DNA of 64,000 bases from Microvirga solisilvae. GTDB lineage: Bacteria; Pseudomonadota; Alphaproteobacteria; Rhizobiales; Beijerinckiaceae. Position numbers and translations under genes: made by a program. The notes under the pieces are model-generated. The model ran no database searches and was not told the DNA's origin. It saw only the letters and a list, made by a program, of their open reading frames with translations. The stretch is taken from positions 124,001 through 188,000 of the forward strand of contig NZ_JAKUCN010000002.1 of NCBI RefSeq assembly GCF_022808595.1. Reading direction: 5' to 3'. Shown here in pieces: positions 1 to 19,220 of the stretch (position 1 is its first letter; each line of letters begins with the position of its first letter).

Positions 1-1
1 C

Positions 2-3529: not shown

Positions 3530-4021
3530 AAAGGCCGGTCTGCTCCACATGTATGGGAAGGTGCTAAATTGGAGGGGCATTATCCTGGGGTTAGGTGGGG
3601 TTTAAAGCCATTAAGCACGCAAGCTATGTGACTGTAATATAAGCGTTATGTTACCTCTCTCCTGGGCACCATCAACCCTTTAAGTGGTTGATCCGCAAAC
3701 GAATCCAGATCAAGACATCAGACCATCCGGGTCGTCTAAGCTGATCGGTCGTAATCCTCAAAAGCCTTATTCGCCTTTGTGTTAAAGCCAGAGCGATCAT
3801 GCTGAACTGGGCGATACCCTTTTTGGATTCGATACTCCAGTCGTTCAAAAGCCAACGCTTGTCGAGACTTCGAAACTGACATTGCTTCATTTGCTGATAG
3901 TAAACAGCGCTTTGGGCACTGAAGGCGGGTTGGCGCAATCTGGCCTCTCGGCCAAAGGTTAAAGCACGGAACCAAATCAAAGCTTGACGGTTAACGGGGG
4001 CCATTACCGCCAGGGCCGACC
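3530..4021. other. Gene-free, AT-richer stretch between restriction genes and metabolic island
   Basis: I find no convincing gene in these roughly 490 bases. Short open frames on the minus strand (for example 3672-4004) have no ribosome binding site or recognisable protein. A 7-bp inverted repeat, ATCAACC/GGTTGAT at 3671-3692 with an 8-base loop, could be a weak hairpin, but no T-run follows. The stretch presumably contains the promoter of the long plus-strand run starting at 4022, but I could not assign convincing -35/-10 boxes. Confidence 0.5.
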
Positions 4022-4996
4022 ATGCTGTTTAGAATTGCCTGGTTCATTTTTGCGCTGGTCATCTCTGGGCCAATTTTTGCGCAAGAGAGCCACCTCATCA
4101 GAGTTGGTGTGCTCAGGTTCGGTACCGTCGCCTGGGAAATCGACACGCTCCGTCACGAAGGTCTCGACCGTAAGCATGGGATCGCCCTTGCGCCGGTAGA
4201 ACTCGCCTCGAATGAAGCTGCCAAGGTCGCGTTGCAGGCCGGCGCAGTGGATATGATCGTCACCGATTGGCCTTGGGTGGCCCGCCAAAGAAGTGAAGGA
4301 GCCTCGTTCAGCTTCATTCCCTACTCGAAAGCGGTCGGCGTGCTGATGGTCCCTCGGGATTCGCGTATCAAGAGTGTTGAGGATCTCAAGGGTTCGCGAA
4401 TTGGAGTTGCTGGCGGAGCCCTCGACAAAAGTTGGCTTCTTCTCAGAGCCTACGCACAGAAAGAGTTTGGTATCGACCCGGCGCAAGCAATGGAGCCCGT
4501 TTTCGGTGCCCCTCCGTTGTTGAACGAGGAATTGGCACGTGGGCGCATCGGTGCCGTTCTGACCTATTGGCACTATGCCGCTCGGCTTGAGGCCGAGGGC
4601 GCGCGTCCGCTGCTCACGGTAGCAGATATGATCCGCCATCTCGGCATCGACAGCGATGTACCGATGCTCGGCTATGCGTTTCGTGACGATTGGGCAGAGC
4701 GTGAACAAGCTGCGCTGAAAGGCTTCGTCGCGGCATCGCGGGAGACCAAGATGCTGCTTGCGACTTCAGGGGAAGCATGGACACGTCTGGCGCCTCAGAT
4801 CGGAACTGATGACCCAGCTGTCCTGGCATCTCTGAGAGCAAACTTTCGCGCCGGAATCCCGGAGCATTGGGGGGATGCCGAGCGAAAGGCATGTGCCGAT
4901 CTTTATGCTATCTTGGCCAGTATTGGAGGGGAGAAGTTGGTCGGAAAGGCCAAGGTCCTGGATCCGAAGACCTTTTGGCTTTCCGTATCCTATTGA
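4022..4996 (+). CDS. NitT/TauT-type ABC transporter substrate-binding protein
   Basis: This is a periplasmic binding protein of 324 residues with a clean signal peptide (hydrophobic MLFRIAWFIFALVISG, cleavage after IFA before QES). The mature part has the SsuA/TauA/NMT1 fold signature: IRVGVLRFGTVAWEID at the N-terminus, ALQAGAVDMIVTDW, then LKGSRIGVAGGALDKSW and a second lobe. It would deliver a small anion, amine or cofactor precursor to the permease and ATPase encoded just downstream. The actual ligand cannot be read from sequence. It is the first gene of a 15-kb co-directional run that includes a PQQ dehydrogenase, so a role in supplying that system is plausible but unproven. Confidence 0.85.
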   Translation: MLFRIAWFIFALVISGPIFAQESHLIRVGVLRFGTVAWEIDTLRHEGLDRKHGIALAPVELASNEAAKVALQAGAVDMIVTDWPWVARQRSEGASFSFIPYSKAVGVLMVPRDSRIKSVEDLKGSRIGVAGGALDKSWLLLRAYAQKEFGIDPAQAMEPVFGAPPLLNEELARGRIGAVLTYWHYAARLEAEGARPLLTVADMIRHLGIDSDVPMLGYAFRDDWAEREQAALKGFVAASRETKMLLATSGEAWTRLAPQIGTDDPAVLASLRANFRAGIPEHWGDAERKACADLYAILASIGGEKLVGKAKVLDPKTFWLSVSY

Positions 4997-5004
4997 GGCT
5001 GCCG

Positions 5005-5766
5005 ATGCGCGCTGCTGACATCCGGAGCGGAGGAAGCTGGCAGGCAATTGCCTCCGTTCTGCTGTTCATCGGGTTGTGGCAGATCGGGGCTGTTTTCGCC
5101 GACAGCCGTCTCTTGCCAGGGCCTGCTGCCGTTCTGGCAAGCCTCATCGGCGAGGCGCGAAATGGCGCTCTGTTCCATCACCTCGGCATCACGCTTGCGC
5201 GCGTGGGTGTCAGCTTCACCGTCGCCATGGTGATCGGGGCCGCGCTCGGCATCGCGCTCGGCCTTTGGCGCCCGCTCGACCGCTGGCTCAATCCATGGCT
5301 CGTGATCCTGCTCAACGTGCCGGCGCTCGTCGTCATCATCCTCACTTACATCTGGCTCGGTCTGGTGGAGACGGCCTTGCTCGTGGCGGTGGCGCTCAAC
5401 AAGATCCCCAATGTGGCGGTGACTCTTCGCGAAGGCGCGCGGGCGCTCGACCGGGATTACGCGGAGGTAGCGCAGGTCTATAGGCTCAGTCCCTGGATGA
5501 CATTGCGGAACGTCATTGTTCCGCAGCTGGCGCCATATCTCCTGGGCGCCGCGCGCAACGGGCTCGCCCTCATCTGGAAGATCGTGCTCGTGGTGGAGCT
5601 TCTGGGACGATCCAACGGTGTCGGCTTTCAGCTGCAGAGCTATTTCCAGCTTTTCGACGTGCCCCGCGTGATAGCCTATGCGGCAGCGTTTATCGCCTGC
5701 GTCTTGCTGATCGAGCTTCTGCTCTTCGCGCCGCTCGACCGCCGCATGGAGGCGTGGCGGCGATGA
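5005..5766 (+). CDS. ABC transporter permease (SsuC/TauC type)
   Basis: This is a 253-residue inner-membrane permease of the binding-protein-dependent BPD_transp_1 family. It has about six hydrophobic segments and the EAA loop (EGARALDRDYAEVAQVYRLS), followed by the APYLLGAARNGLALIWK region typical of nitrate, sulfonate and taurine permeases. An in-frame start at 4867 inside the preceding gene is rejected. ATG 5005 lies 8 bases after the binding-protein stop and begins just before the first membrane helix. The stop overlaps the ATPase start (ATGA). It pairs with the binding protein at 4022 and the ATPase at 5763. Confidence 0.88.
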   Translation: MRAADIRSGGSWQAIASVLLFIGLWQIGAVFADSRLLPGPAAVLASLIGEARNGALFHHLGITLARVGVSFTVAMVIGAALGIALGLWRPLDRWLNPWLVILLNVPALVVIILTYIWLGLVETALLVAVALNKIPNVAVTLREGARALDRDYAEVAQVYRLSPWMTLRNVIVPQLAPYLLGAARNGLALIWKIVLVVELLGRSNGVGFQLQSYFQLFDVPRVIAYAAAFIACVLLIELLLFAPLDRRMEAWRR

Positions 5767-6410
5767 CCATGCGCATTCTCATTCAACGAAAGGTTTTTCC
5801 TGCGCGCGCGCAAGCTCCTGCTCACATTGTCTTCGAGCGTTTTTCGCTCGATCTCGCGGAAGGGGAAATCTGCGCCATCGTCGGCCCGTCCGGCATCGGA
5901 AAGACGAGCCTTCTCCACATCGTCGCCGGTCTCGACAATGATTTTTCCGGTTCCGTCGAAGGGCGGCCGCGCGGGATCGGCTATGTATTCCAGCAGCCGC
6001 GCCTTCTGCCATGGCGAACCGCCCGGCAGAATCTGCAACTCGTGATTCCCGATTGCCCCGAGCGGGCAGGCGACTGGCTTGCGCAGGTCGGGCTTGCAGG
6101 CTCCGAGAATGTCTATCCGCAGCGCCTGTCTCTCGGCATGGCGCGGCGCGTATCGCTGGCGCGGGCCTTGGCCGTCGAGCCGAAACTGCTGCTGCTCGAT
6201 GAGCCCTTCTCCGCTCTCGACGAGGCTACCGCGAAGAGCATGCAGGATCTCGTATCGGCACAGCTGAAGAGATTGCGTCCGACCACTCTTCTGGTAACGC
6301 ATCATTGGCACGAGGCGGCAGCCCTTGCCGATCGGGTGATCACGCTCGACGGTTCTCCCGCGCGGATCGTGGACGACAGGTCGATCCGGCCCGCGAGGGC
6401 TGCGGAATGA
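5763..6410 (+). CDS. ABC transporter ATP-binding protein (SsuB/TauB type)
   Basis: This is a compact 215-residue ATPase. It carries Walker A GPSGIGKTS, a Q-loop in VFQQPRLLPW, a signature in the variant form LSLGMARRV instead of LSGGQ, Walker B LLLLDEPFSALDE and a switch histidine in VTHHWHEA. The Q-loop wording (QQPRLLPW) is typical of the nitrate/sulfonate/taurine ATPases, which supports pairing with the upstream permease. The start at 5763 forms an ATGA overlap with the permease stop; an alternative ATG lies 9 bases earlier. The next gene again overlaps by 4 bases, so the importer and the dehydrogenase-associated genes appear to form one transcription unit. Confidence 0.87.
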   Translation: MTMRILIQRKVFPARAQAPAHIVFERFSLDLAEGEICAIVGPSGIGKTSLLHIVAGLDNDFSGSVEGRPRGIGYVFQQPRLLPWRTARQNLQLVIPDCPERAGDWLAQVGLAGSENVYPQRLSLGMARRVSLARALAVEPKLLLLDEPFSALDEATAKSMQDLVSAQLKRLRPTTLLVTHHWHEAAALADRVITLDGSPARIVDDRSIRPARAAE

Positions 6411-7579
6411 AGCTGCTTCTCGCCTTTATCGCATTGTTTCTGGCGAGCCCTGTTCTTGGTCAGGAAAAAACCATCGCCATCGGCGTTGTCACGCAAACGC
6501 GTGATCCCGTGCAGCCTGTCTCTCCTCTCGACCAGGAGATCAGAGACGAGGGCCTTGCAGGTGCGCGCCTCGGCATTGCCGACAATGCCACCACCGGCCG
6601 TTTCACCAAGCAGCGTTTCACGCTCGTGGAACAAACGCTAGCGAAGGATGCCAAGCCGGCAGATGCCATCCGCGATCTGGCAAAGGAGGGCATCAGGTTC
6701 GTGGTGACCGATCTCGACGCGCCCCTTCTCACGGCGGCAGCCTCCGCTCCGGAGGCGCGTGAGATGCTTTTTCTCAACGCGCGCGCGCCTGACGATGCGC
6801 TGCGTAACGAATCCTGCCGCGCCAATATGCTTCATACCATCCCGAGCCGTGCCATGCTGGCCGATGCCCTGGCACAGTATCTGATGACGAAACACTGGCG
6901 GCGCTGGTTTCTCGTGACCGGCAGCGCTCCCGGCGACAAGCTGCAGGCGCAAGCCTTTCGCCGCGCAGCGATGCGATTTGGTGCCGAGATCGTTGGCGAA
7001 AAAGAATGGACCTTCAAGCCGGGGCATGCGCGTACCGATACCGGCCACGTGACCCTGCAAAGCGAGATCCCGGCTTTGACGCAAGTGACTGACCATGACG
7101 TCCTCGTCGTTGCGGATGAAACGAACGAATTCGGGGATTACCTCTCCTACCGCACGGCAAGGCCCCGTCCCGTCGCGGGCACCCATGGGCTCGTCACCAC
7201 GGGCTGGAGCGAGGTGTCCGAACAATGGGGCGCAACGCAGCTTCAAGCCCGGTTCGAGACCTTATCGGGCCGCAAAATGACTGCCGTCGATTACGCTGCC
7301 TGGGCCGCGATCCGCGCCGTTGGTGAGGCCGCCACCCGCTCGCGCAGCAATGACCCTGCCGCCATCATGGCCTATCTGCGCGGATCCGATTTCATCCTCT
7401 CCGGCTTCAAGGGCCAGGGGCAGAGCTTCCGCGTCTGGGACGGGCAGATGCGCCAGCCGATCCTGATCGCAGGGCCTCGGCTCCTCGTTTCCGTCTCACC
7501 GCAGGCAGGCTATCTGCATCGGGGCTCCGAACTCGACACGCTGGGATTCGACCAGGGAGAGAGCCGATGCCGGTTCTGA
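6407..7579 (+). CDS. PedA1/LutA-like ABC substrate-binding protein of PQQ alcohol dehydrogenase systems
   Basis: This is an exported binding protein of 390 residues with signal peptide MKLLLAFIALFLASPVLGQ. The body has the type I periplasmic-binding fold of the branched-chain amino acid/Leu-Ile-Val class and contains FLNARAPDDALR, KHWRRWFLVTGSAPGDK and the VADETNEFGDY segment. It is followed by a YVTN beta-propeller, an ATPase and an ABC-2 permease. The gene set and order match the transporter found beside PQQ alcohol dehydrogenases (pedA1-A2-B-C of Pseudomonas putida; lut genes of Methylobacterium), for which a role in rare-earth uptake is reported. The lanthanide role here is inferred from that synteny and the neighbouring dehydrogenase. 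Start 6407 overlaps the previous stop (ATGA). Confidence 0.82.
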   Translation: MKLLLAFIALFLASPVLGQEKTIAIGVVTQTRDPVQPVSPLDQEIRDEGLAGARLGIADNATTGRFTKQRFTLVEQTLAKDAKPADAIRDLAKEGIRFVVTDLDAPLLTAAASAPEAREMLFLNARAPDDALRNESCRANMLHTIPSRAMLADALAQYLMTKHWRRWFLVTGSAPGDKLQAQAFRRAAMRFGAEIVGEKEWTFKPGHARTDTGHVTLQSEIPALTQVTDHDVLVVADETNEFGDYLSYRTARPRPVAGTHGLVTTGWSEVSEQWGATQLQARFETLSGRKMTAVDYAAWAAIRAVGEAATRSRSNDPAAIMAYLRGSDFILSGFKGQGQSFRVWDGQMRQPILIAGPRLLVSVSPQAGYLHRGSELDTLGFDQGESRCRF

Positions 7580-8526
7580 TAGCCTTTTTCTTGCTCGCAC
7601 TGACCCTGCAGGCTGCATCTGCTGAAACGATCTATGTGTCGAACGAGCAGGACAACACGATCTCCGTAATCGACGGGCAATCCCTGAGCCTTGCAGCCAC
7701 GATCCCGGTAGGACGGCGCCCGCGCGGGATCGGCCTGAGCGCGGACAGGCAGAAGCTCTATGTGGCAGCAGGCGACGACAATCGCATTGATGTGGTCGAT
7801 CTGAAAACCCAGAAGGTGGAAGGCTCGCTTCCCTCCGGCGAAGACCCGGAATTGTTCGTGCTGCATCCGGACGGGCGCCGTCTGTTCGTGGCGAACGAGA
7901 ACGACAATCTCGTGTCCGTTCTCGATATCCCTGAAAAACGCATCGTCAGTGAAGTCGAGGTCGGCGTGGAGCCGGAGGGCATGGGAGCAAGCCCCGATGG
8001 CCGTATCGTGGTGAACACGTCCGAGACCACGAGCATGCTCCATGTCATCGATGCCGCGAGCCTCGAACTGATCGACAATATCCTGGTGGATACTCGCCCT
8101 CGTGTCGCACAGATCTCTGCCGACAGCAGGCAGATCTGGGTCTCGTCCGAGTTACGTGGAACGGTGGAGGTGTTCGACGCCGACACGCGAGAATCCTTGG
8201 CGAAGATCGTTTTCGAAGTACCCGGCGTTCCACGCGAACTCGTGCAGGCGGTCGGCATCCAACTGACAGCCGATGGATCGCGGGCTTATGTCGCCCTGGG
8301 TCCCGCCAATCGCGTCGCCGAGATCGATGCGAAGAGCTTCAAGGTGCTGCGCACTTATCTGGTGGGGCAGCGTGTCTGGCACATTGCGCTCTCGCCGGAC
8401 GATAAACGGCTTTATACGGCCAACGGCAATTCGAGCGATGTGTCCGTCATCGATCTCGCGGGCCAGGAGGTGGCGAAGACCATTGGCGTCGGCCGTTCGC
8501 CATGGGGAATCATGGTCGCGCCATGA
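7567..8526 (+). CDS. Exported YVTN beta-propeller protein, PQQ-catabolism associated (PedA2-like)
   Basis: The 319-residue product begins with a signal peptide (MPVLIAFFLLALTLQAASA). Repeated YVTN-type blades follow, such as ETIYVSNEQDNTISVIDG, KLYVAAGDDNRIDVVDLK, RLFVANENDNLVSVLDI and RLYTANGNSSDVSVIDL, giving about seven blades over the whole protein. This matches the family of beta-propeller proteins encoded beside PQQ-dependent dehydrogenases. It is periplasmic, and it may bind metal or act with the ABC transporter, but its exact role is not known. The start overlaps the previous gene by 13 bases, and its stop overlaps the next ATPase start (ATGA), so the genes are very likely co-translated. 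Confidence 0.87.
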   Translation: MPVLIAFFLLALTLQAASAETIYVSNEQDNTISVIDGQSLSLAATIPVGRRPRGIGLSADRQKLYVAAGDDNRIDVVDLKTQKVEGSLPSGEDPELFVLHPDGRRLFVANENDNLVSVLDIPEKRIVSEVEVGVEPEGMGASPDGRIVVNTSETTSMLHVIDAASLELIDNILVDTRPRVAQISADSRQIWVSSELRGTVEVFDADTRESLAKIVFEVPGVPRELVQAVGIQLTADGSRAYVALGPANRVAEIDAKSFKVLRTYLVGQRVWHIALSPDDKRLYTANGNSSDVSVIDLAGQEVAKTIGVGRSPWGIMVAP

Positions 8527-9239
8527 CGGCTCTTGTCATCGAGAACCTCAGTCATGGGTTCGGGCGACGCAAGGCTCTTTCCGATGTGAGCCTCACCATC
8601 GATCCGGGCGCCTTCATGGTGTTGCTCGGCCCCAACGGGGCGGGGAAGACCACGCTCGTCTCGCTCGCCACCGGTTTATACAATGCACAACAGGGCGATA
8701 TCCGCATCTTCGGACATTCGATCAGCCGCGATCCGCTGCCGGCACTCGCCGATCTCGGCGTCGTCTTCCAGATGCCGACCCTCGACCTCGACCTGACCGT
8801 TATGGACAACCTCGCTTATCACGCAGCTTTGCGTGGGCTTTCCCGCGCAAAGGGTCTGGAACGGGCTTCCGTCGAGCTGGAACGGCTCGGCATTGCCGAG
8901 CGAGCCCACGACAAGGTACGCGCCCTGTCGGGAGGATTGCGGCGGCGCGTCGAGATCGCCCGCGCCCTCCTGCACGATCCCCGTCTTCTGATCGTCGACG
9001 AGGCGACCGCCGGTCTCGATGTGGCGGGGCGGCACATGTTGCTCACGCATGTGCGCTCCTTATGCGGGGAGGGAATCAGCGTGCTGTGGGCCACACACAT
9101 GCTGGACGAGATCGAGCCCGCAGACAGGCTTGCGGTGCTGCATCGGGGATCGCTGCGATGGACGGGGGCGGCGAGCGAACTCGCATCTCCGGAAAATCTT
9201 GAAGCTGCATTCCTGCAGCTTATGGGAGAAGCGGCATGA
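8523..9239 (+). CDS. ABC transporter ATP-binding protein, PQQ alcohol dehydrogenase system (PedB/LutE-like)
   Basis: This is a 238-residue ATPase with Walker A GPNGAGKTTL, Q-loop VFQMPTLDLDLTV, signature LSGGLRRRVEIARAL, Walker B LLIVDEATAGLD and switch histidine in ATHMLDEIE. It resembles the CcmA/DrrA-type ATPases that work with ABC-2 permeases and is followed directly by one. The start at 8523 forms an ATGA overlap with the beta-propeller stop; an in-frame ATG at 8502 is less likely. With the genes on either side it forms the PedA1-A2-B-C arrangement. In relatives this transporter is needed for growth on alcohols with rare-earth elements, which I apply here only as inference. Confidence 0.87.
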   Translation: MTALVIENLSHGFGRRKALSDVSLTIDPGAFMVLLGPNGAGKTTLVSLATGLYNAQQGDIRIFGHSISRDPLPALADLGVVFQMPTLDLDLTVMDNLAYHAALRGLSRAKGLERASVELERLGIAERAHDKVRALSGGLRRRVEIARALLHDPRLLIVDEATAGLDVAGRHMLLTHVRSLCGEGISVLWATHMLDEIEPADRLAVLHRGSLRWTGAASELASPENLEAAFLQLMGEAA

Positions 9240-10039
9240 GCATGCGTCATGCCGCTTTGGCCTTCTCAGGCATCATGCGCCGGGAAATGCTGCGCTTCAT
9301 CGGCCAGCATGGGCGCTTCGCGGCAGCAATCGTGCGGCCTCTCGTATGGCTCGGCATCTTCGCAGCGGGCTTTCGCTCCGTGCTGGGGCTTTCCATCATC
9401 CCACCTTACCAGACCTACATTCTCTATGAGGTCTATATCGTACCAGGACTTGCCGGGATGATGCTGCTCTTCCACGGCATGCAGAATTCCCTCTCCATGG
9501 TCTACGATCGCGAAATGGGCTCGATGCGCGTTCTCCTGACCGCACCCCTGCCGCGATGGTGGCTTTTGGGCGCGCGGCTACTTGCCAGCACGATTACGGT
9601 TCTGCCGGTCGTATACGGCTTCCTGCTGCTGGCCCGCTTCTGGGAGGTGCGCCCGCCGGCTTTCGGCTATGCGGCGGCCTTGCCTGCTTTGGTTCTGGCG
9701 GGCCTCATGCTCGGTGCTTTCGGCCTGGCTCTTTCCTCCCTCATCCGCCAGCTTGAGAATTTCGCGGGCGTGATGAACTTCGTCATCTTCCCGGCCTTCT
9801 TTGCTTCGACCGCGCTCTATCCCCTCTGGCGGCTGGAAGAAGTCAGTCCCGTTCTGGCGGCTTTTGCCTGGGCCAATCCTTTCTCGCATGCGGTCGAGCT
9901 GATCCGTTTCGCGCTTTATGGACAGCTGGAGCCTTTCTCCCTCCTTGTCTGTAGTGTCTCTCTCATCGTCTTCTTCAGCCTTGCCGTCTGGGGTTACGAT
10001 CCGGGACGAGGTTTCTGGGCCCGCCGAGCCGTCGAATGA
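9236..10039 (+). CDS. ABC-2 family transporter permease, PQQ alcohol dehydrogenase system (PedC/LutF-like)
   Basis: This is an integral membrane protein of 267 residues with six hydrophobic segments in the ABC-2 arrangement. It includes the VYDREMGSMRVLLTAPLPRW cytoplasmic loop and the later FFASTALYPLWRLEE and NPFSHAVELIRFALYG segments typical of this family. It overlaps the ATPase stop by 4 bases. It is the membrane partner of the ATPase at 8523. ABC-2 permeases are often exporters, yet this subgroup is linked to metal uptake in lanthanide users, so the transport direction is open. Its own stop overlaps an ATG at 10036 that gives only a very short frame. Confidence 0.87.
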   Translation: MSMRHAALAFSGIMRREMLRFIGQHGRFAAAIVRPLVWLGIFAAGFRSVLGLSIIPPYQTYILYEVYIVPGLAGMMLLFHGMQNSLSMVYDREMGSMRVLLTAPLPRWWLLGARLLASTITVLPVVYGFLLLARFWEVRPPAFGYAAALPALVLAGLMLGAFGLALSSLIRQLENFAGVMNFVIFPAFFASTALYPLWRLEEVSPVLAAFAWANPFSHAVELIRFALYGQLEPFSLLVCSVSLIVFFSLAVWGYDPGRGFWARRAVE

Positions 10040-10042
10040 AAG

Positions 10043-10068
10043 GGAACAGGTCAATTCGCTTCATCGTT
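10043..10068 (+). promoter_or_regulatory. Possible EcfG-type promoter (GGAAC-N17-CGTT)
   Basis: GGAAC at 10043-10047 and CGTT at 10065-10068 are separated by 17 bases, which fits the general-stress sigma EcfG consensus (GGAAC, 16-17 bases, CGTT). It sits just after the permease stop and ahead of the 55-residue gene and the dehydrogenase. An EcfG-like sigma gene lies at 63096-63647. About one such match is expected by chance in a window of this size, so this is weak. Confidence 0.25.
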
Positions 10069-10076
10069 GCTGTTGC

Positions 10077-10244
10077 ATGGCAAAGCCGCAGAACAGTTCC
10101 TTGAAGAAAGACCTCCGGGTTTTCGGCGACCCAGGTTTTCTGGTGGCCTTGCTGATCATTGGAATTCTATGCGCCATAGGCGCAGGCATCTTGTTCTACG
10201 CCACGGATAAGTATGGCATCTCCGTTCGCGAGTACTGGCGCTGA
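10077..10244 (+). CDS. Small single-pass membrane protein of the PQQ dehydrogenase island
   Basis: This is a 55-residue product with a charged N-terminus (MAKPQNSSLKKDLRVFGDPG), one strong hydrophobic helix (FLVALLIIGILCAIGAGILF, about residues 22-41) and a short C-terminal tail ending in ISVREYWR. I do not recognise the family. It sits between the ABC-2 permease and the dehydrogenase, in the same direction, and is short enough to be missed by gene callers. A small membrane protein here could assist the permease or the oxidase, but this is a guess. No strong ribosome binding site is visible before ATG 10077, which lowers confidence. Confidence 0.5.
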   Translation: MAKPQNSSLKKDLRVFGDPGFLVALLIIGILCAIGAGILFYATDKYGISVREYWR

Positions 10245-10275
10245 TCGGTTCCCGGACGCTGCGTAACAATATTGA

Positions 10276-10293
10276 AAATCGTGATCACGATTT
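10276..10293. promoter_or_regulatory. Perfect 18-bp palindrome upstream of the PQQ dehydrogenase
   Basis: AAATCGTGATCACGATTT is a perfect inverted repeat centred between 10284 and 10285, about 80 bases before the dehydrogenase start. It is framed by a second inverted pair, GTTCCCG at 10248-10254 and CGGGAAC at 10294-10300. With no loop and no T-run it looks more like an operator for a dimeric regulator than a terminator, though a nested hairpin in the transcript is also possible. No regulator gene is encoded next to it. Confidence 0.5.
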
Positions 10294-10372
10294 CGGGAAC
10301 ATAGCCAAAGCTGAACAGTTGGAGTCGAGCCGCCGATGATGCGGCGCGTCCTCGCGTTCCGGAGAACACATC

Positions 10373-12178: not shown

Positions 12179-12983
12179 AGGGGGAGTTCTTGCAGCGTTT
12201 CTCGTGCTGGCAGGTGGCGTGCAGGCGCGCGAGCTTCGTGTCTGCGCCGATCCCAACAACATGCCTTTGTCCAACGAAGCGGGCGAAGGTTTCGAGAACA
12301 AGATCGTCGAGTTGATCGCGCAGGATCTCGGGGCGGAAGTTCGCTACACCTGGTGGGCGCAAAGGCGCGGCTTCCTGCGCAACACGTTGAAGGCCGGAAC
12401 CTGCGATCTCGTCCCCGGCCTTCCCGCCAATCTCGAAGGCGTTCGCACGACCGCGCCCTATTATCGCTCGGCCTATGTGTTCGTGACACGCGCCAGCGGG
12501 CCCGAGGTATCGTCCTTCAACGATCCTGTCCTTCGCCAAGCGAAGGTGGGTGTACACCTGATCGGCGATGACGGTTCCAATACGCCGCCGGCTCATGCCC
12601 TGGCCCGCAGAGGCATTGTCGAGAATGTACGCGGCTACATGATCTATGGCGATTACAGCCAGCCGAACCCGCCCGCGCGCATTCTCCACGATCTTGCCGA
12701 AGGTGAGATCGATATCGCAATCGTCTGGGGCGCTTTAGGCAGTTATTTCGCACAGCATGAGAAGATTCCGCTGAAAGTCACGCCCGTGAGACCAGCCTTC
12801 GATGGACCACAGCTTCCCATGGTGTTCGATATTTCCATGGCCGTGCGCAAGGAGGACGAGGCGCTGCGCCAGGAAATCGACGCAGCGCTCTCCCGCCGTC
12901 GCGCCGATATCGATGCCATCTTGTCGGCTTACAATGTTCCGCGTCTCGATGGTGGCCTGAAGCAGGCGGAGCACAGGCCATGA
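12159..12983 (+). CDS. XoxJ/MxaJ-like periplasmic binding protein, quinoprotein associated
   Basis: This is an exported protein of 274 residues with signal peptide ending around GGVQA and mature start RELRVCADPNNMPLSNEAG. It has the type II periplasmic-binding fold of the family encoded beside PQQ dehydrogenases (MxaJ/XoxJ). It shows GFENKIVELIAQDLGAEV, TCDLVPGLPA and YYRSAYVFVTR, all usual for that group. XoxJ is thought to help activate or metallate the dehydrogenase rather than to serve an ABC transporter. The gene overlaps the end of the dehydrogenase gene by 20 bases in another frame and overlaps the next gene by 4, so co-translation is likely. Confidence 0.86.
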   Translation: MCSSFLKGGVLAAFLVLAGGVQARELRVCADPNNMPLSNEAGEGFENKIVELIAQDLGAEVRYTWWAQRRGFLRNTLKAGTCDLVPGLPANLEGVRTTAPYYRSAYVFVTRASGPEVSSFNDPVLRQAKVGVHLIGDDGSNTPPAHALARRGIVENVRGYMIYGDYSQPNPPARILHDLAEGEIDIAIVWGALGSYFAQHEKIPLKVTPVRPAFDGPQLPMVFDISMAVRKEDEALRQEIDAALSRRRADIDAILSAYNVPRLDGGLKQAEHRP

Positions 12984-13540
12984 GAACGCTTCTGATCCTG
13001 CCGCTCTTAGCCTTCACACTCGCCGCCTGCGAACGCGAGGATCGGGAATATCGATCCAATCCCGTAACAGCTGAGTCTCAGGAAAAGATTGCGCTCGTGC
13101 CTCTCTCAGCGGGCCCCGGCGGTCCGACGGAGCAGCGCTCCGGTCTCGGCAAGGAATACGAGGAGAACGCCTTTCACATCTCGCAGGGCCAGCGATTCTA
13201 TGTCTGGTTCAACTGCAATGGCTGCCACGCCAATGGCGGCGGCGATTCAGGCCCCGCATTGATGGACGACCGCTGGATCTATGGCGGGCAGATCGAGAAT
13301 ATCGTGCAGACGATCCGTGAGGGCCGCCCAAACGGCATGCCGTCTTTTCGCGGGAAGATCCCCGACGATCAGATCTGGCAGATCGCAGCCTATATCCGCT
13401 CCATGGGCCGCAACGTGCCGAAGCCCGCTGCACCCGGGCGCAAGGATGACATGAGCCCAGGCCCGGCCGAGCAGCGCCGTCCGCCAGGCGAGGTCATCGA
13501 TGGCGGCCAGGTGCCTCCGTCCGCGCAGATGCCGCAATGA
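12980..13540 (+). CDS. Cytochrome c lipoprotein
   Basis: This is a class I c-type cytochrome of 186 residues with a lipobox (FTLAAC, Cys15), so it is probably anchored to a membrane facing the periplasm. One haem site, CNGCH, lies about residue 77. A later methionine in GRPNGMPSFRGKIPDD is the likely distal ligand, followed by the QIWQIAAYIRSMG helix. The C-terminal tail is rich in Pro and charged residues. Its position between the dehydrogenase/XoxJ pair and the oxidase genes suggests it is the electron acceptor linking them (XoxG role), which is inference. ATGA overlap with the upstream gene. Confidence 0.88.
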   Translation: MRTLLILPLLAFTLAACEREDREYRSNPVTAESQEKIALVPLSAGPGGPTEQRSGLGKEYEENAFHISQGQRFYVWFNCNGCHANGGGDSGPALMDDRWIYGGQIENIVQTIREGRPNGMPSFRGKIPDDQIWQIAAYIRSMGRNVPKPAAPGRKDDMSPGPAEQRRPPGEVIDGGQVPPSAQMPQ

Positions 13541-13547
13541 GGCGATC

Positions 13548-14549
13548 ATGAAGAGGGCTTTTTCTATCCTTCTTCTGAGCCTGCCCCTCGCAGGATGCCA
13601 GGGCTGGCAATCGGCGCTCGATGCGCAGGGGCCCTCGGCGCAGGCGCTTGCGGAGATGTTCTGGATCTTCGTGGCGGTGCTGGGCATCGTCTGGGTATTG
13701 ACCATGACGGCGCTTCTCCTGGCTTTGCGCAGAAGGCGGCCTGCCGATGCGGACCCGCTTTCGACGGATCCCGGCACGGAGCGGCGCATGACGATCACGG
13801 TGTCTGTTGCCGTTGCTCTGACGCTCGTCACCGTGATCGCCCTCACAGGCTTGAGCTATGCCGCTCAGAAGGTGCTCTTCTCGCATAAGGATGGCGCGCT
13901 GACCCTGTTGGTGACGGGTCAGCAATGGTGGTGGAAGATCACTTACGAGAATGAGCAGCCGAACCTTGTCTTCACCACCGCGAACGAGATCCATATTCCC
14001 GTCGGCAAGCCGGTTCTGATCAAGCTCGAATCGGCAGACGTGATCCATTCCTTCTGGGTTCCCAACCTCACAGGCAAGATGGACGCGATTCCCGGGCGTC
14101 AGAACCAGCTTCAGATCCAGGCGGATCGGCCGGGAATTTATCGCGCGCAATGCGCGGAGTTCTGCGGCCTTCAGCATGCGCATATGGGCATGCTCGTCGT
14201 TGCTGAACCGAAGGAGGATTTCGAACGCTGGCGCAACCACCAGGTCTCGTCCGCCATTCCGCCGAACGATCCCGAGCGCCAGCGCGGCATGGAGGTCTTT
14301 CTCTCGAAGCCCTGCATCATGTGCCATCAGGTGCGCGGCACGGATGCGGGCGGCAAGGTTGCCCCGGATCTCACCCATGTGGGAAGCCGCCGCTATATCG
14401 GCGCCGGGACGCTCGAGACCACACGCGGCAATATCGCGGCCTGGATCATCGATCCGCATGGCATCAAGCCGGGCGTGAACATGCCGACGATCCAGCTCGA
14501 ACCTGACGAGGTGCAACCGCTTGCAAGCTATCTGGAGGGGTTGAAGTGA
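13548..14549 (+). CDS. coxB: Cytochrome c oxidase subunit II with fused cytochrome c (caa3 type)
   Basis: This is a 333-residue subunit II. It begins with a lipoprotein signal (SLPLAGC), then two membrane helices, then the CuA cupredoxin domain. The CuA ligands are visible: His in VIHSFWVPN and the cluster CAEFCGLQHAHM. A C-terminal cytochrome c domain with haem site CIMCH and methionine in GVNMPTIQLEPDE makes this the caa3 type, which takes electrons directly from soluble or anchored cytochrome c. The start at 13548 was chosen for its lipobox; an in-frame extension to 13500 has no support. The gene ends in a GTGA overlap with subunit I. Confidence 0.94.
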   Translation: MKRAFSILLLSLPLAGCQGWQSALDAQGPSAQALAEMFWIFVAVLGIVWVLTMTALLLALRRRRPADADPLSTDPGTERRMTITVSVAVALTLVTVIALTGLSYAAQKVLFSHKDGALTLLVTGQQWWWKITYENEQPNLVFTTANEIHIPVGKPVLIKLESADVIHSFWVPNLTGKMDAIPGRQNQLQIQADRPGIYRAQCAEFCGLQHAHMGMLVVAEPKEDFERWRNHQVSSAIPPNDPERQRGMEVFLSKPCIMCHQVRGTDAGGKVAPDLTHVGSRRYIGAGTLETTRGNIAAWIIDPHGIKPGVNMPTIQLEPDEVQPLASYLEGLK

Positions 14550-16558
14550 CGAAAGCCATCACTCCTCACGAGCTCGATGCGGTCCCTGAAGTCACGCGTC
14601 TCGCCACGGGCGAACGTGGTGGCGTTTCCGGAGCAAGGAGCGAGGCGGATTATTCGCCGGATCCGAAGGAGCTTCGTGACGATCAGGTGGATGGCCCCGA
14701 GCTCACGGCGCGGCTCGCCAAGACCTGGGGCACGCAGAAAGGCTTGATCGGCGCGCTTTCCACAGTCGACCACAAGGTCATCGGCCGCCGGTACATCATC
14801 ACTGCTCTTTTCTTCCTCTTTTTGGGCGGGTTGTCGGCGGTCGCCATGCGCCTGCAGCTGGCAAGGCCCGAGAGCAGCCTGATCGGGCCTGATCTCTACA
14901 ATCAACTCTTCACCATGCACGGCACGACGATGATGTTTCTCTTCGGCGTGCCCATCGGCGAGGCTTTCGCGGTCTATCTGGTGCCGCTCATGGTCGGCAC
15001 GCGCAACATCGCCTTTCCCCGCCTGAACGCCTTTTCCTATTACGTCTATCTGTTCGGCGGCCTCATGATCTGGCTGGCCTTCATGCTGAATATCGGGCCG
15101 GATGTGGGCTGGTTCGCCTATGTACCGTTGTCGGGGCCTGAATTCTCGCCGGGCAAGCGGGCGGATATCTGGGCGCAGATGATCACGTTCACGGAGGTCG
15201 CGGGCATCTCTGTCGCGATCTCGGTCATCGTGACGGTCTTCAAGCTGCGTGCGCCTGGCATGACGCTCGACCGGATCCCGCTTTTCGTCTGGGCCGAGCT
15301 GATCAATTCCTTCGTGATCATCTTCGCGATGCCCGCCGTGGTCACAGCCTCCGCCCTGCTGCTCATGGACCGGCTCGTGGGTACCCACATCTTCAATCCG
15401 GCGGAAGGCGGCGACGCGCTGCTGTACCAGCATCTGTTCTGGTTCTTCGGCCACCCGGAGGTCTACATCATCTTCCTTCCGGCAACGGGCTGGGTGTCGG
15501 CCATCGTCGTCACCTTCGCGCGCCGACAGGCCTTCGGCTATATCGCGCTCGTTCTTTCGCTCATCGCCACAGGCTTCTTGTCGTTCGGGCTCTGGGTGCA
15601 CCACATGTTCACCACGGGTTTGCCGCAGCTTGGCGCCAGCTTCTTCACGGCATCGAGCATGCTCATCGCCATTCCCAACGGCATTCAGATCTTCTGCTGG
15701 ATCGCAACGCTCTGGGATGGGCGGCCCGTGTTCCGCACGCCGCTCCTCTTCGTCATCGGCTTCTTCTTCATCTTCGTGGCGGGCGGGCTTTCCGGCATCA
15801 TGCTGGCCTCCGTGCCGCTCGATGCCCAAGTGCACGACACGTTCTTCGTGGTGGCGCATTTCCACTATGTGCTCATCGGCGGCAACGTCTTTCCGCTGAT
15901 CGGCGCGATCTATTACTGGTTCCCGAAATTCACCGGTCGGATGATGAACGAGCGCCTCGGAAAATGGCATTTCGGGCTCGCCTTCATAGGCTTCAACGTG
16001 GCCTTCTTCCCCATGCACATCACAGGCCTCATGGGCATGCCGCGGCGCGTCTATACCTATCTGCCGGAGATGGGCTGGGGGAACCTGAACATGATCTCCA
16101 CCATCGGCGCGGCTGTCTTCTTCGGGAGCTTCCTGCTCTTCCTCTACAACATCGTCACGAGCGCACGCCGCGGCCCCTTGGCTGGCCCCAATCCCTGGAA
16201 TGCCGGCACCCTCGAATGGGCTTCCGCCTCGCCGCCGATGCCGCAGAATTTTGACCGCATTCCCATCGTGACCAATCGCGAGCCACTCTGGGCCCATCGC
16301 GATAGCCTGCCGGTGGCAGCGGGCTTGAGCGTGGAGAACCGGGAGCAGATCGTTTCCACCGTCACCGCCGGTCGCGCGGATCTGCGCGAGAGCACGCCCG
16401 AGCCTTCGATCTGGCCCTTCCTGTCGGCGGTGGCGATCACGATCCTGTTCGTCGGTTCGATGTTCACGCCCTGGGCTCTGGTGTGGGGCACGCCGCCCCT
16501 GGCTCTCGCTTTGATCGGCTGGTTCTGGCCGAAGGCCGGCACAGAGGACGAGCGATGA
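14546..16558 (+). CDS. ctaD: Cytochrome c oxidase subunit I, extended caa3 type
   Basis: This is the catalytic oxygen-reducing subunit, 670 residues, with a GTG start overlapping the subunit II stop. Haem and copper ligands are seen in TMHGTTMMF, FFGHPEVYIIFLPATG (His-Tyr pair), HHMFTTG and HDTFFVVAHFHYV. It is longer than the usual 530-560 residues. An N-terminal hydrophilic extension of about 65 residues precedes the first helix, and after the twelfth helix a linker leads to two further hydrophobic segments (WPFLSAVAITILFVGSMFTP and WGTPPLALALIGWFWP). Such a 14-helix form is known for caa3 oxidases, where the extra helices replace the first two of subunit III. The downstream subunit III is correspondingly short. 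Confidence 0.95.
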   Translation: MTKAITPHELDAVPEVTRLATGERGGVSGARSEADYSPDPKELRDDQVDGPELTARLAKTWGTQKGLIGALSTVDHKVIGRRYIITALFFLFLGGLSAVAMRLQLARPESSLIGPDLYNQLFTMHGTTMMFLFGVPIGEAFAVYLVPLMVGTRNIAFPRLNAFSYYVYLFGGLMIWLAFMLNIGPDVGWFAYVPLSGPEFSPGKRADIWAQMITFTEVAGISVAISVIVTVFKLRAPGMTLDRIPLFVWAELINSFVIIFAMPAVVTASALLLMDRLVGTHIFNPAEGGDALLYQHLFWFFGHPEVYIIFLPATGWVSAIVVTFARRQAFGYIALVLSLIATGFLSFGLWVHHMFTTGLPQLGASFFTASSMLIAIPNGIQIFCWIATLWDGRPVFRTPLLFVIGFFFIFVAGGLSGIMLASVPLDAQVHDTFFVVAHFHYVLIGGNVFPLIGAIYYWFPKFTGRMMNERLGKWHFGLAFIGFNVAFFPMHITGLMGMPRRVYTYLPEMGWGNLNMISTIGAAVFFGSFLLFLYNIVTSARRGPLAGPNPWNAGTLEWASASPPMPQNFDRIPIVTNREPLWAHRDSLPVAAGLSVENREQIVSTVTAGRADLRESTPEPSIWPFLSAVAITILFVGSMFTPWALVWGTPPLALALIGWFWPKAGTEDER

Positions 16559-17199
16559 CGAAAGCCTCTTTTCAGCCGCAGGACAGCGAAGAGCTGTTGC
16601 CTCATCGGATCGTCCTCAACGTGCGATCGATGCCGAGCTACGCTTACGGCCATCGCAGCCCGATCTGGTGGGGAACAGTGGCTTTCGCCGCTGCCGAAGG
16701 CATGGGCTTTGCCATGGCCATCGGAGTCTATTTCTACCTCGTCTTCATCAACGGAAACTGGCCCCTCAGCGCGCCGCCGCCGGATCTCTTCTGGCCGAGC
16801 CTCTTCACCGTTGTTCTGCTCGTCAGCGCATGGCCGAATGCCCGGGCCAAGCGAGATGGCGAGCAGGAGAACCTTTCCGCGACGCGCCGCAATCTCGTGA
16901 TCATGAGCCTTGCCGGAATCGTTCTCCTGGTGATCCGCATCATGGAATTCAACGGACTCCATGTGCGCTGGGATCAGAACGCCTACGGATCGGCCGTGTG
17001 GCTGCTGCTCGGCCTTCACACCCTGCATCTTCTGACCGATCTTGGTGACACTGTCGTTCTCACGGTGCTCATGTTCACGCGCCACGGTCACGGCAAGCGC
17101 TTTTCTGATGTGGGCGACAATGCCTTCTATTGGTATTTCGTCGTCGCCTCATGGTTGCCGATCTATCTGATCCTCTACTGGTTCCCGAGATGGTGGTGA
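16555..17199 (+). CDS. coxC: Cytochrome c oxidase subunit III (short, five-helix form)
   Basis: This is a 214-residue membrane protein. Family features include RSPIWWGTVAFAAAEGMGFA (glutamate in the first helix), HVRWDQNAYGSAVWLLLGLH, and the terminal DNAFYWYFVVASWLPIYLIL segment. It has about five hydrophobic segments, fewer than the seven of mitochondrial-type subunit III, which fits the extra helices in subunit I. ATG 16555 overlaps the subunit I stop (ATGA); an in-frame upstream start at 16483 lies inside subunit I and is rejected. It stabilises the oxidase and proton uptake. Confidence 0.92.
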   Translation: MTKASFQPQDSEELLPHRIVLNVRSMPSYAYGHRSPIWWGTVAFAAAEGMGFAMAIGVYFYLVFINGNWPLSAPPPDLFWPSLFTVVLLVSAWPNARAKRDGEQENLSATRRNLVIMSLAGIVLLVIRIMEFNGLHVRWDQNAYGSAVWLLLGLHTLHLLTDLGDTVVLTVLMFTRHGHGKRFSDVGDNAFYWYFVVASWLPIYLILYWFPRWW

Positions 17200-17203
17200 G
17201 CCC

Positions 17204-17554
17204 ATGGCAGGATGGTTCTCACGAGGTCTTCCATCCGCCGGCATTTATGCCGGCCCTGCGGCATGGCTCGTCGACACACAGTTCAATTATGCGGCCGTGC
17301 CGTGGGTCTGCGCTCATCAGGTTCCGCTCGTTCCGATCTTCGCGCTCGTCATGGTAGTGTGCAGTCTCTTCGGAGGGTTTCTCTCCTGGCGCGGCTATGT
17401 CACAGCAGCACCGACGCCCTTGCCCGACTCGACGGGAGCCGGACGGCCGCATCGTTTCGTGGCCCTGATGGGCATGGCGATCGCAGCGCTTTTCACCGTC
17501 GTCATCCTGCTTCACGGCGCAGCTGGCCTCGTCTTCCATGGGTGCGAGCGATGA
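17204..17554 (+). CDS. Small membrane protein of the oxidase operon
   Basis: This 116-residue protein has about three hydrophobic segments (AGIYAGPAAWLVDTQFNYAA, VPIFALVMVVCSLFGGFLSW and FVALMGMAIAALFTVVILLH). It sits between subunit III and ctaG, 4 bases after the former and overlapping the latter by 4. I know similar short proteins in this position but no assigned function; a minor oxidase subunit or assembly partner is possible. The C-terminus has HGAAGLVFHGCE, with His and Cys that could bind copper, but this is speculation. Confidence 0.75.
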   Translation: MAGWFSRGLPSAGIYAGPAAWLVDTQFNYAAVPWVCAHQVPLVPIFALVMVVCSLFGGFLSWRGYVTAAPTPLPDSTGAGRPHRFVALMGMAIAALFTVVILLHGAAGLVFHGCER

Positions 17555-18465
17555 AGGCGCTGATTGTCCTCATCACACTTTTTGCCGCCGGTGAGGCCCA
17601 GGCTCATGCGGGCCATGTGCACTGGCTCGAAGGCGGCACGACCTGGACGTGGGATCCGCAGGTCACGTTGCCGCTCGCATTGTCGGGCGGGCTTTATCTC
17701 ATCGGCACATTGCGCCTATGGCGCCGGGCAGGGATGGGGCGCGGCGTGCGTATCTGGCAGGCATCCTGCTTCATGCTCGGATGGGGACTTCTCGTTTTTG
17801 CTCTCGTCACGCCGCTTCATTGGCTCGGTGAACGGCTGTTCTTCGCGCATATGATCGAGCATGAGATTCTCATGGCGTTGGCCGCGCCGCTTCTCGTCGT
17901 GGGAAATCCGGTCGCCATGCTGTGGGCTGTGCCGGCGGGCTTGCGCCGTCGGATCGGCGGGATCGGACAAGTTCCGCTTGTCGCGCGCTCATGGGCGTGG
18001 CTCACCCATCCTCTTGTCGCCACGCTGATTCATGGAGGCGCTGTTTGGTTGTGGCACGCTCCGCCCCTCTATGAGGCGGCCCTGTCCGATCCTTGGATTC
18101 ACTGGCTGCAGCATCTCAGCTTTTTCATCACCGCTCTTCTGTTCTGGCGTGCCCTGCTGCAGGGGCCGGAGCGAGAGCGTGGTTACGGCGTGGCCGTGTT
18201 CTATCTCTTCGTCACCTCCCTCCACACAGGCTTCCTCGGCATCCTGCTCTCCCTCATGCGGCGCAGCATCTATCCGACGCAGACATCGGGGGCCGCCGAA
18301 TGGGGACTGACGCCTCTGGAGGATCAGCAGCTCGCTGGCCTGTTCATGTGGATTCCGGCGGGCCTCATTTACGCGGGTGCTGCGTTGATCCTCGCAGGAT
18401 TCTGGATCGTCCGCTCAGGATCAACCCGCTCCAGGGGAGGGCACCATGCCCATGCGGCGCGCTAG
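17551..18465 (+). CDS. ctaG: Cytochrome c oxidase assembly protein, caa3_CtaG family
   Basis: This is a 304-residue polytopic membrane protein of the caa3_CtaG family, thought to help deliver copper to caa3-type oxidases. It starts with a cleavable or first-helix signal followed by a His-rich HAGHVHWLEGG. Further membrane segments carry conserved residues: FAHMIEHEILMALAAPLLV, HGGAVWLWHAPPLYEAAL, WIHWLQHLSFF and the SLHTGFLGILL helix. The tail is basic and His-rich (GGHHAHAAR). ATG 17551 overlaps the preceding stop; the longer in-frame extension to 17212 is rejected because it runs antiparallel to no known domain and lies inside the previous gene. Confidence 0.9.
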   Translation: MKALIVLITLFAAGEAQAHAGHVHWLEGGTTWTWDPQVTLPLALSGGLYLIGTLRLWRRAGMGRGVRIWQASCFMLGWGLLVFALVTPLHWLGERLFFAHMIEHEILMALAAPLLVVGNPVAMLWAVPAGLRRRIGGIGQVPLVARSWAWLTHPLVATLIHGGAVWLWHAPPLYEAALSDPWIHWLQHLSFFITALLFWRALLQGPERERGYGVAVFYLFVTSLHTGFLGILLSLMRRSIYPTQTSGAAEWGLTPLEDQQLAGLFMWIPAGLIYAGAALILAGFWIVRSGSTRSRGGHHAHAAR

Positions 18466-19027
18466 AAGTTGGACTCCCATCGCGGTGACATTGCTCGCCG
18501 GTGTGGCCGGAGCACTCCTCGGTTTCGGAAAGGGCGCACATGCAGGCAGAAGCGGGAAGGCACCGCGTCCCGCCTTCGATCCGCAAGCGCATCTGACCGG
18601 GATCCACATTCCCACGCCGGTCCGCTTGCAGCGGCAATCCGTTGTCATCGGGTTCATTCTCGTGTTGCTGGCAGGGGCCGGTATCTATGCCGGATACGCG
18701 ATCAAGTTTACGCAGGACGCGCGCCAGCGCGCCATTGCCCTCACGGGAGGCGATCCTGATCTCGGACGCGATCTCACGAAGCGCTATGGCTGCGCGGGGT
18801 GCCACACAATTCCCGGCGTTCCGGGCGCTCAGGGAAAGGTGGGGCCGACCCTCGAAGGCTTCGCCGCCCGCGTCTATATCGGTGGCGTGGCCGCCAATTC
18901 GCCCGACACCCTGATTCAATGGATCGAAGACCCTAAATCCATTGATCCCAAAACCGCAATGCCAGTGACGGGGATCTCGCGACGCGAGGCCAGACATGTG
19001 GCAGCCTATCTCTATTCGCTGCGATAA
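18446..19027 (+). CDS. Membrane-anchored cytochrome c
   Basis: This is a 193-residue c-type cytochrome. It has one short hydrophobic stretch near the N-terminus (ITVTLLAGVAGALLG-like, residues 12-26) and a stronger one (VVIGFILVLLAGAGIYAGY, residues 66-84), then a periplasmic haem domain with CAGCH and methionine in KTAMPVTGIS. It overlaps the end of ctaG by 20 bases in another frame. It is the last gene of the 4.0-19.0 kb run. It may shuttle electrons between the alcohol dehydrogenase cytochrome and the caa3 oxidase, or from another complex to it. Confidence 0.87.
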   Translation: MPMRRARSWTPIAVTLLAGVAGALLGFGKGAHAGRSGKAPRPAFDPQAHLTGIHIPTPVRLQRQSVVIGFILVLLAGAGIYAGYAIKFTQDARQRAIALTGGDPDLGRDLTKRYGCAGCHTIPGVPGAQGKVGPTLEGFAARVYIGGVAANSPDTLIQWIEDPKSIDPKTAMPVTGISRREARHVAAYLYSLR

Positions 19028-19220
19028 ATAAGGAATGAAAGCAGCTTCGTAGGCTCGACGGTGGTCCAAATACTTCCAGATCAATCAAGGCTGAGAGGCC
19101 GCCCGAGTGGTCCACGCAAGCGGGACACATGGCCCTTTCGATGCCTCGTCCCTGGAAACATCCCGAGACCGGAATTTATTGGCCGCAGGCGCGGTCATCG
19201 AGCACTTGTAGCCACTCGCT

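Follow-up and report, generated by a model that had tools for sequence, protein, structure and literature searches.

When a dehydrogenase and a terminal oxidase are encoded side by side, do they form one respiratory module, and how far does that module extend? The question is raised by a 64,000-nucleotide stretch of the Microvirga solisilvae genome (the window, below), in which 16 genes, all reading rightward (+), fill positions 4022-19027. Among them are a XoxF-type alcohol dehydrogenase dependent on pyrroloquinoline quinone (PQQ), the three subunits of a caa3-type cytochrome c oxidase and two ATP-binding cassette (ABC) transporters. We read the locus as a XoxF3-type lanthanide/PQQ module for the oxidation of an alcohol, probably methanol, joined to its own caa3-type oxidase, and give this a probability of about 85%. 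An earlier note on this DNA had described a 15-kb single-direction island with genes joined mostly by 4-base overlaps, and its coordinates, order and gene identities hold, with the addition of a protein of 116 amino acids (aa) that it did not list. On the predicted gene starts, 8 of the 15 junctions are exact 4-base overlaps, three are longer overlaps (13, 20 and 20 bases), three are gaps of 4-8 bp and one is a gap of 333 bp.

Linkage of the dehydrogenase and oxidase genes

Loci for comparison were found with the window XoxF peptides, and the best 80 of 250 loci, all 80 named (L006-L085; L numbers are our handles for loci), make up the linkage count, so that close relatives are over-represented. 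A cox1 gene is present in the fetched flanks of 64 of these 80 XoxF3-like loci; 14 end too early, and the loci of Phenylobacterium deserti (L023) and Methylobacterium sp. 2A (L036) have no cox1 although 9.5 kb is available on either side. Flanks of at least 9.5 kb to the left and right are available for 42 loci, and in these the figures are 40 for cox1, 40 for xoxJ, 37 for ctaG and 36 for the last cytochrome c gene, and then 12 for a detectable 116-aa protein and 7 each for the permeases of the Ped and NMT1 types. Gene order is variable, at least three of cox2, cox1, cox3 and ctaG lying downstream on the xoxF strand in 50 of the 80. Such loci occur in Acidobacteria, Gemmatimonadetes, Verrucomicrobia, Corallococcus, Lysobacter, Massilia, Caulobacter and Sphingomonas, among others. 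A survey of 297 genomes from the same order found XoxF3-like proteins (at least 59% identity) in 10, with Cox1 within 4 kb in eight, a contig end in one and no Cox1 in one.

The earlier note had proposed that the oxidase is dedicated to the dehydrogenase, a proposal to be dropped if relatives lacked conserved linkage, and the 40 of 42 well-flanked loci with cox1 bear it out. XoxF and Cox1 also diverge together, the distances in their trees being correlated with r of 0.65 for 72 loci and 0.76 for the main group of 62, whereas 999 permutations of the 72 gave no value above 0.20. The tie of XoxF3 to the oxidase is strong, though not absolute, and the conserved unit is the right-hand part of the run: the genes for XoxF3, XoxJ, a cytochrome c, CoxB, CtaD, Cox3, the small protein, CtaG and a second cytochrome c.

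With regard to the dehydrogenase itself, the solved structure closest to it in sequence is the methanol dehydrogenase 4mae. The window XoxF has a vicinal Cys-Cys pair and has Glu202, Asn286, Asp328 and Asp330, which align with E172, N256, D299 and D301 of SolV. The Cys pair and these residues are each conserved in 94 or 95 of 95 aligned XoxF proteins. The lanthanide aspartate, Asp330 (the D301 equivalent, two residues past the catalytic Asp), is present in all 95 and the other metal ligands in 94 of the 95. The window enzyme has Trp at 329, where the 95 have Tyr (57), Trp (23), His (14) or Arg (1), and Trp at this site is the mark of a XoxF3 subgroup only. PMC8561711 (papers are cited here by PMC number and for the portions of their text available to us) describes a XoxF3 group in which Microvirga and clade C2 sequences predominate and which has Trp300 instead of Tyr/Phe, and our use of the XoxF3 label follows that description; the same paper also states that Microvirga XoxFs are mainly XoxF1 and XoxF5.

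In such a module the alcohol would be oxidised by XoxF3 in the periplasm, and electrons would pass to the cytochrome c encoded immediately after xoxJ, then to the cytochrome c and CuA of subunit II, and from there through heme a/a3-CuB to O2. XoxJ may aid the activation of XoxF, and assembly of the oxidase would be aided by CtaG and perhaps by the small Cys-containing membrane protein.

Proton channels of the linked oxidase

The window CtaD differs from the solved mycobacterial enzymes in having IPNGIQ for VPTGIK, that is Gln381 for Lys, and GTRN for GAPD, that is Asn154 for Asp. We take Gln381 to be at the site of the K-channel lysine (K362 in Rhodobacter numbering) and Asn154 at that of the D-channel aspartate (D132). 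The comparison used 105 Cox1 sequences, one per locus with an open reading frame (ORF) of at least 450 aa, plus the second Cox1 of L021 and L102; Cox1 truncated at contig ends, a Gln-type second copy in L033, and L004, which is probably a cbb3-type oxidase, are outside the set. At six sites 14 of the 105 have N-D-N-E-Y-K, 81 have Gln at the Lys site, and 10 combine Trp at the Glu286 site with a Lys site that is Ala in nine and Thr in one. These classes are defined by the channel residues themselves, and are thus no proof of one another.

The Lys is absent from 73 of the 75 Cox1 proteins in XoxF3 loci, which covers the linked oxidase of every XoxF3 locus with a readable Cox1, and the D-channel Asp is usually missing from these as well; the other two are the second, separate genes of L021 and L102, both of which also have a Gln-type copy. 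Loss of the K-channel lysine was nevertheless ruled out as a hallmark of XoxF3 partners, as all 10 CoxI+III fusion oxidases from the same order also have Gln at that site. Only the loss of the D-channel Asp is associated with the XoxF3-type branch, with exceptions: of the 81 Gln-type proteins 69 have no Asp there, one of these (L042) having Glu, and the 10 fusion enzymes, L040 and L091 keep it. Position 217 is Glu in all 81 Gln-type proteins, and Gly in 13 of the 14 Lys-type and all 10 Trp-type; Glu is also frequent at the N207 position. The window Cox1 retains Glu305, equivalent to Glu286, and the Tyr288 equivalent. His303, His352, His353, His438, His440 and Tyr307 are kept in 63 of 63 Gln-type proteins, as are the ligands and Tyr that were checked in 8 of 8 Trp-type, and we take these to be the heme and CuB ligands and the cross-linked tyrosine of the active site. 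Our best reading is that the linked oxidase probably has non-canonical proton coupling, with a catalytic site that appears intact.

A different possibility, which we regard as doubtful, is that the linked oxidase contributes little or nothing to energy conservation, having no canonical A-type pumping, and that the module is an electron sink or scavenging chain. The Lys is there in 14 and missing in 91 of the 105, including the 73 tied to XoxF3, and to this can be added the Asp missing from most Gln-type proteins and a negative result for subunit II: in a 22-column stretch from the window and 18 loci, aligned with no canonical subunit II, the motif E..W...P was not seen. However the Glu286 and Tyr288 equivalents are kept, and with Glu217 in every Gln-type protein a remodelled proton route is possible. 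The fusion enzymes, for all their Gln, may pump. There is also the discussion in PMC8239418 of K-channel variants in archaeal family A oxidases, with seven losses counted under a hypothesis that the paper argues against. Because that paper already treats it, K-channel variation as such is not new; for the proton channels of XoxF-linked oxidases we found no mention in the papers searched.

A bolder reading, which we hold to be less likely than not, is that the XoxF3-linked oxidases are a clade of A-type enzymes from which the K-channel lysine has disappeared, and in whose main branch the D-channel entry is gone too, with a buried glutamate in place of the canonical glycine. Protons may then be taken up, and perhaps pumped, by an unknown route, or may come from the periplasm with alcohol oxidation hardly coupled to energy conservation. 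Such oxidases could serve to scavenge traces of alcohol under stress or starvation, in hosts that would have to scavenge PQQ as well, and would do so without PqqU, the known importer. If the altered channels are confirmed, the energy yields assumed for methanol oxidation in soil would change, and the XoxF3-linked oxidase would be a natural test of the need for K and D channels. XoxF3 was the commonest XoxF type in a survey of weathered rock and soil, with 340 of 411 sequences, and XoxF3 systems are described in that paper as never studied experimentally (PMC10875860).

In the Cox1 tree a split with support of 0.97 parts the 14 Lys-type proteins from the other 91, and two distinct oxidase branches are linked to XoxF3. 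The second branch, with Trp at Glu286 and Ala or Thr at the K-channel Lys, has ten members (L025, L047, L048, L055, L060, L063, L076, L084, L096 and L106), which split into two separate groups of the XoxF tree.

It also bears on our reading that there are at least seven relatives of the window oxidase with no XoxF3 alongside (L086-L092), six of them inside the XoxF3-linked clade and L091 its sister; counts of unlinked oxidases are lower bounds, the top few candidates per genome having been scored. This and several other points weigh against our reading of the locus. Some XoxF3 loci have no linked oxidase (L023, L036 and L097), and the correlation of the two trees ignores species descent. XoxF3 of Methylocella silvestris is barely expressed, with no significant response to lanthanides (PMC9291206), though in strain OB3b a XoxF3 protein is up with cerium by a log2 fold change of 7.66 (PMC12482762). 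Growth on methanol is not assured for the window genome, as Fae was not found in it, although a glutathione-dependent formaldehyde dehydrogenase is present.

One could also regard the oxidase as a general-purpose unit that happens to lie next to XoxF3, with XoxF3 electrons going to a shared cytochrome pool and the linkage due to hitch-hiking or common regulation. The unlinked relatives lend this some weight, being mostly nested in the XoxF3-linked clade and having a molybdopterin oxidoreductase nearby in five of the seven cases (the other two were partly scanned), as do the three further COX1 matches in the window genome and the oxidase-free XoxF3 loci. We think it unlikely, given the retention of cox1 in nearly all well-flanked loci, the correlated distances of XoxF and Cox1, and the fact that two different oxidase branches are tied to XoxF3. 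The five unlinked oxidases near a molybdopterin oxidoreductase are the Gln-type caa3 enzymes of L086-L090, and in L087, L089 and L090 an NRAMP transporter is also nearby.

Importers, mobility and cofactor supply

The four PQQ-associated ABC families of the run are in the order TIGR03863, TIGR03866, TIGR03864, TIGR03861, each above the NCBI cut-off, and 6407-10039 is on this basis a predicted lanthanide importer of the PedA1A2BC/Lut type. PedA1A2BC of Pseudomonas putida comprises proteins of the same four kinds (a binding protein, a YVTN propeller, an ATPase and a permease) and is needed for growth at low lanthanum, its deletion raising the lanthanum need 100-fold (PMC6839425). The settings also differ, as the P. 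putida genes are near PedE/PedH and the window block adjoins XoxF3 and a further, NMT1-type ABC transporter.

The importer had been presented in the earlier note as part of the chain, its own metal importer, and in that respect the claim is not supported. The seven well-flanked loci with a Ped-type permease are all Microvirga; L101 has one as well, L128 has one in convergent orientation and L022 an inverted one, and none was seen in the 10 kb upstream of xoxF in L013. Together the two ABC transporters make up a second unit, which is optional and in Microvirga often lies upstream. All 16 genes in window order are found in six named Microvirga loci (L006-L011) and in one genome of another family (L101), and a further Microvirga locus, L022, is also complete, its ABC block being inverted. 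The arrangement is thus not chance, given that these loci keep its order or its full content.

That the run could move as one unit was also suggested, and here the core of nine genes has to be considered apart from the importers. The core occurs in varied contexts, including Sinorhizobium plasmids typed as conjugative (all nine genes in L104, and all except the last cytochrome c in L103) and Mesorhizobium plasmids typed as non-mobilizable (L105 and L128, each with all nine), and its movement is plausible. In L013, L022, L104, L105 and L128 the importers are absent near xoxF or placed differently. Since the core is on plasmids and the importers are missing or misplaced in these five loci, it is the core and not the 15 kb that is the widely conserved unit. 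The idea that the whole 15-kb run, importers included, is one mobile element draws on nucleotide homology with the seven Microvirga loci complete for the 16 genes, which starts at 3967-4097 and stops at 19014-19028, the window ORFs tested outside the run having no match in roughly 3 kb of flank in those loci, and on the integrase, resolvase and type I restriction system to the left, and it is made improbable by the lack of an integrase among the 16 genes, by the five loci just named, and by a guanine plus cytosine (GC) content of 0.60-0.63 in the run, which resembles the right flank and differs from the left.

The window is on contig C12 of an assembly of 3.70 Mb in 22 contigs, and its XoxF is 83-92% identical to those of the nearest named Microvirga relatives. 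Region C12:109217-126329 (L135 plus window 1-2329) has a tyrosine integrase, a resolvase, the type I restriction-modification genes HsdM, HsdS and HsdR, and GC mostly of 50-58%, and is a probable genomic island.

The earlier note had suggested a self-contained module, which is not supported in respect of the cofactor, for PqqC and PqqE were not found in the genome and PQQ would have to come from elsewhere. With the window genome estimated to be 99.96% complete, PqqE had no hit above its cut-off of 381 bits, the best scoring 49.6, and there was no hit for PqqC, the genus search with its four hits being the control. XoxF3 at 77% identity or more is present in 20 of 48 Microvirga genomes. PqqE and PqqC occur together in the same four of the 48, all XoxF3 carriers, each with a further XoxF (49-52% identity) within 9 kb on the same contig; in the other 16 XoxF3-bearing genomes, mostly drafts, neither gave a match. 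PQQ is thus probably taken up from the environment, the two proteins not being found in the window genome and both lacking in 16 of the 20. E. coli PqqU matched none of the 48 genomes at 1e-20, in a search that had no positive control. PqqU is reported to be largely missing from Alphaproteobacteria, which are inferred mainly to make PQQ and not to scavenge it (PMC12124388), and XoxF3-bearing Microvirga with no PqqC or PqqE match run counter to that suggestion. It is this missing PQQ pathway, together with the proton channels of the oxidase, that we see as worth following.

Published clusters and other features of the run

The earlier note knew of no such complete module. However clusters of a PQQ dehydrogenase with an oxidase have been in print since 2014 and XoxF3 with Cox I-III and CtaG since 2024, and the window belongs, as a further example, with the clusters already described as COX operon type a-II and XoxF3-Cox-CtaG; its importer block is found mainly in Microvirga. 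Type a-II operons (Degli Esposti 2014, PMC4013037) often have an MxaF-related, PQQ-dependent methanol dehydrogenase clustered with the oxidase genes, as is the case in the window, and 40 alphaproteobacteria combine type a-II with a type b operon. The available text of that paper does not name XoxF3 or a Ped-type importer, and the word proton is absent from its main text; its cluster figure has an ABC transporter symbol. It reports a COX1 with a C-terminal COX4-like extension as restricted to type a-II. The window CtaD extends about 95 aa past its TIGR02891 match, Pfam at 1e-3 gives COX1 only, and PF12270 (COX4) is present in 3 of 120 listed homologues (P0055, P0056 and P0070).

The XoxF3 clusters of Acidobacteria and Gemmatimonadetes (PMC10875860) have XoxF3, XoxJ, XoxG, CoxI, CoxII, CoxIII, CtaG and CytC, and also a protein of about 110 aa between CoxIII and CtaG; they differ in often having NRAMP or TonB genes where the window has two ABC importers. 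The xoxFGJ clusters of PMC11845868 share the dehydrogenase, cytochrome and XoxJ-like protein, but the text available gives the conserved cluster as xoxFGJ only, with cox and CtaG in a figure legend.

Table 1. Features of the 15-kb run, with window coordinates
Feature	Position	Strand	Support
NMT1-type periplasmic binding protein, ABC importer	4022..4996	+	PF09084 E 4.6e-10; no NCBIfam model above cut-off
ABC permease (BPD_transp_1), NMT1-type importer	5005..5766	+	PF00528 1.1e-24
ABC ATPase, NMT1-type importer	5763..6410	+	PF00005 2.4e-27
PQQ-dehydrogenase-associated ABC substrate-binding protein, PedA1-like	6407..7579	+	TIGR03863 467.7 bits, cut-off 413.6
PQQ-associated YVTN beta-propeller protein, PedA2-like	7567..8526	+	TIGR03866 453.5 bits, cut-off 287.3
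PQQ-associated ABC ATPase, PedB-like	8523..9239	+	TIGR03864 314.8 bits, cut-off 302.25
ABC-2 permease, PedC-like	9236..10039	+	TIGR03861 367.8 bits, cut-off 241.35
55-aa ORF, one hydrophobic stretch	10077..10244	+	related ORF in 8/14 loci, 45-64% identity
Stretch upstream of xoxF, possible promoter	10245..10372	+	GGAAC-N17-GTT at 10296-10320
XoxF3-type PQQ/lanthanide alcohol dehydrogenase	10373..12178	+	TIGR03075 654.4 bits, cut-off 480
XoxJ-like periplasmic protein	12159..12983	+	TIGR03871 300.7 bits, cut-off 212.15
Cytochrome c in XoxG position, lipobox-like N-terminus (by eye)	12980..13540	+	PF13442 1.6e-14
Cytochrome c oxidase subunit II (CoxB), CuA motif and fused cytochrome c, caa3 type	13548..14549	+	TIGR02866 176.6 bits, cut-off 147.7; PF00116 and PF00034
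Cytochrome c oxidase subunit I (CtaD); Gln381, Asn154	14546..16558	+	TIGR02891 708.3 bits, cut-off 670.75
Cytochrome c oxidase subunit III (Cox3)	16555..17199	+	PF00510 7e-08, above Pfam cut-off
116-aa membrane-like protein between Cox3 and CtaG	17204..17554	+	invariant Cys36, Cys114
CtaG copper-insertion assembly factor	17551..18465	+	PF09678 2.7e-57
Membrane-anchored cytochrome c (anchor by eye)	18446..19027	+	PF00034 1e-05

For the 116-aa protein the two invariant Cys residues were seen in alignments of 32 and of 22 sequences; Pfam gives only a sub-threshold match to DUF4395, and no solved structure was matched by sequence up to E 1. No tRNA was found in the window, and nothing in it matched Rfam at the gathering score; XoxF and Cox1 have no match in PHROGs.

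The run may be two transcription units and not one, because the 333-bp gap (10040-10372), which holds the 55-aa ORF, splits the ABC permease from xoxF. Separate transcription of the oxidase unit is suggested by this gap and by a conserved stretch directly upstream of xoxF. In that stretch GGAAC is present in 9 of 9 aligned Microvirga loci and GTT in 8 of 9 (the exception is L010), among them L013 and L022, in which the genes farther upstream differ. The site at 10296-10320 resembles the general-stress (EcfG) promoter of alphaproteobacteria. In the loose form GGAAC-N16/17-NGTT this site is found ahead of xoxF in 22 of 93 stretches (the window counted), which were positioned from tblastn hit starts, compared with a background of 1.5% per 310 bp, a comparison that ignores kinship. 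An EcfG-like promoter at 10043, the sole strict match in the window, was discarded, as it is not conserved in relatives.

The 55-aa ORF has no Pfam match at 0.01. Related ORFs are present in L006-L011, L013 and L022, and the position shifts, being after the ABC permease in L022, ahead of xoxF in L013, and past the oxidase genes on the opposite strand in L011.

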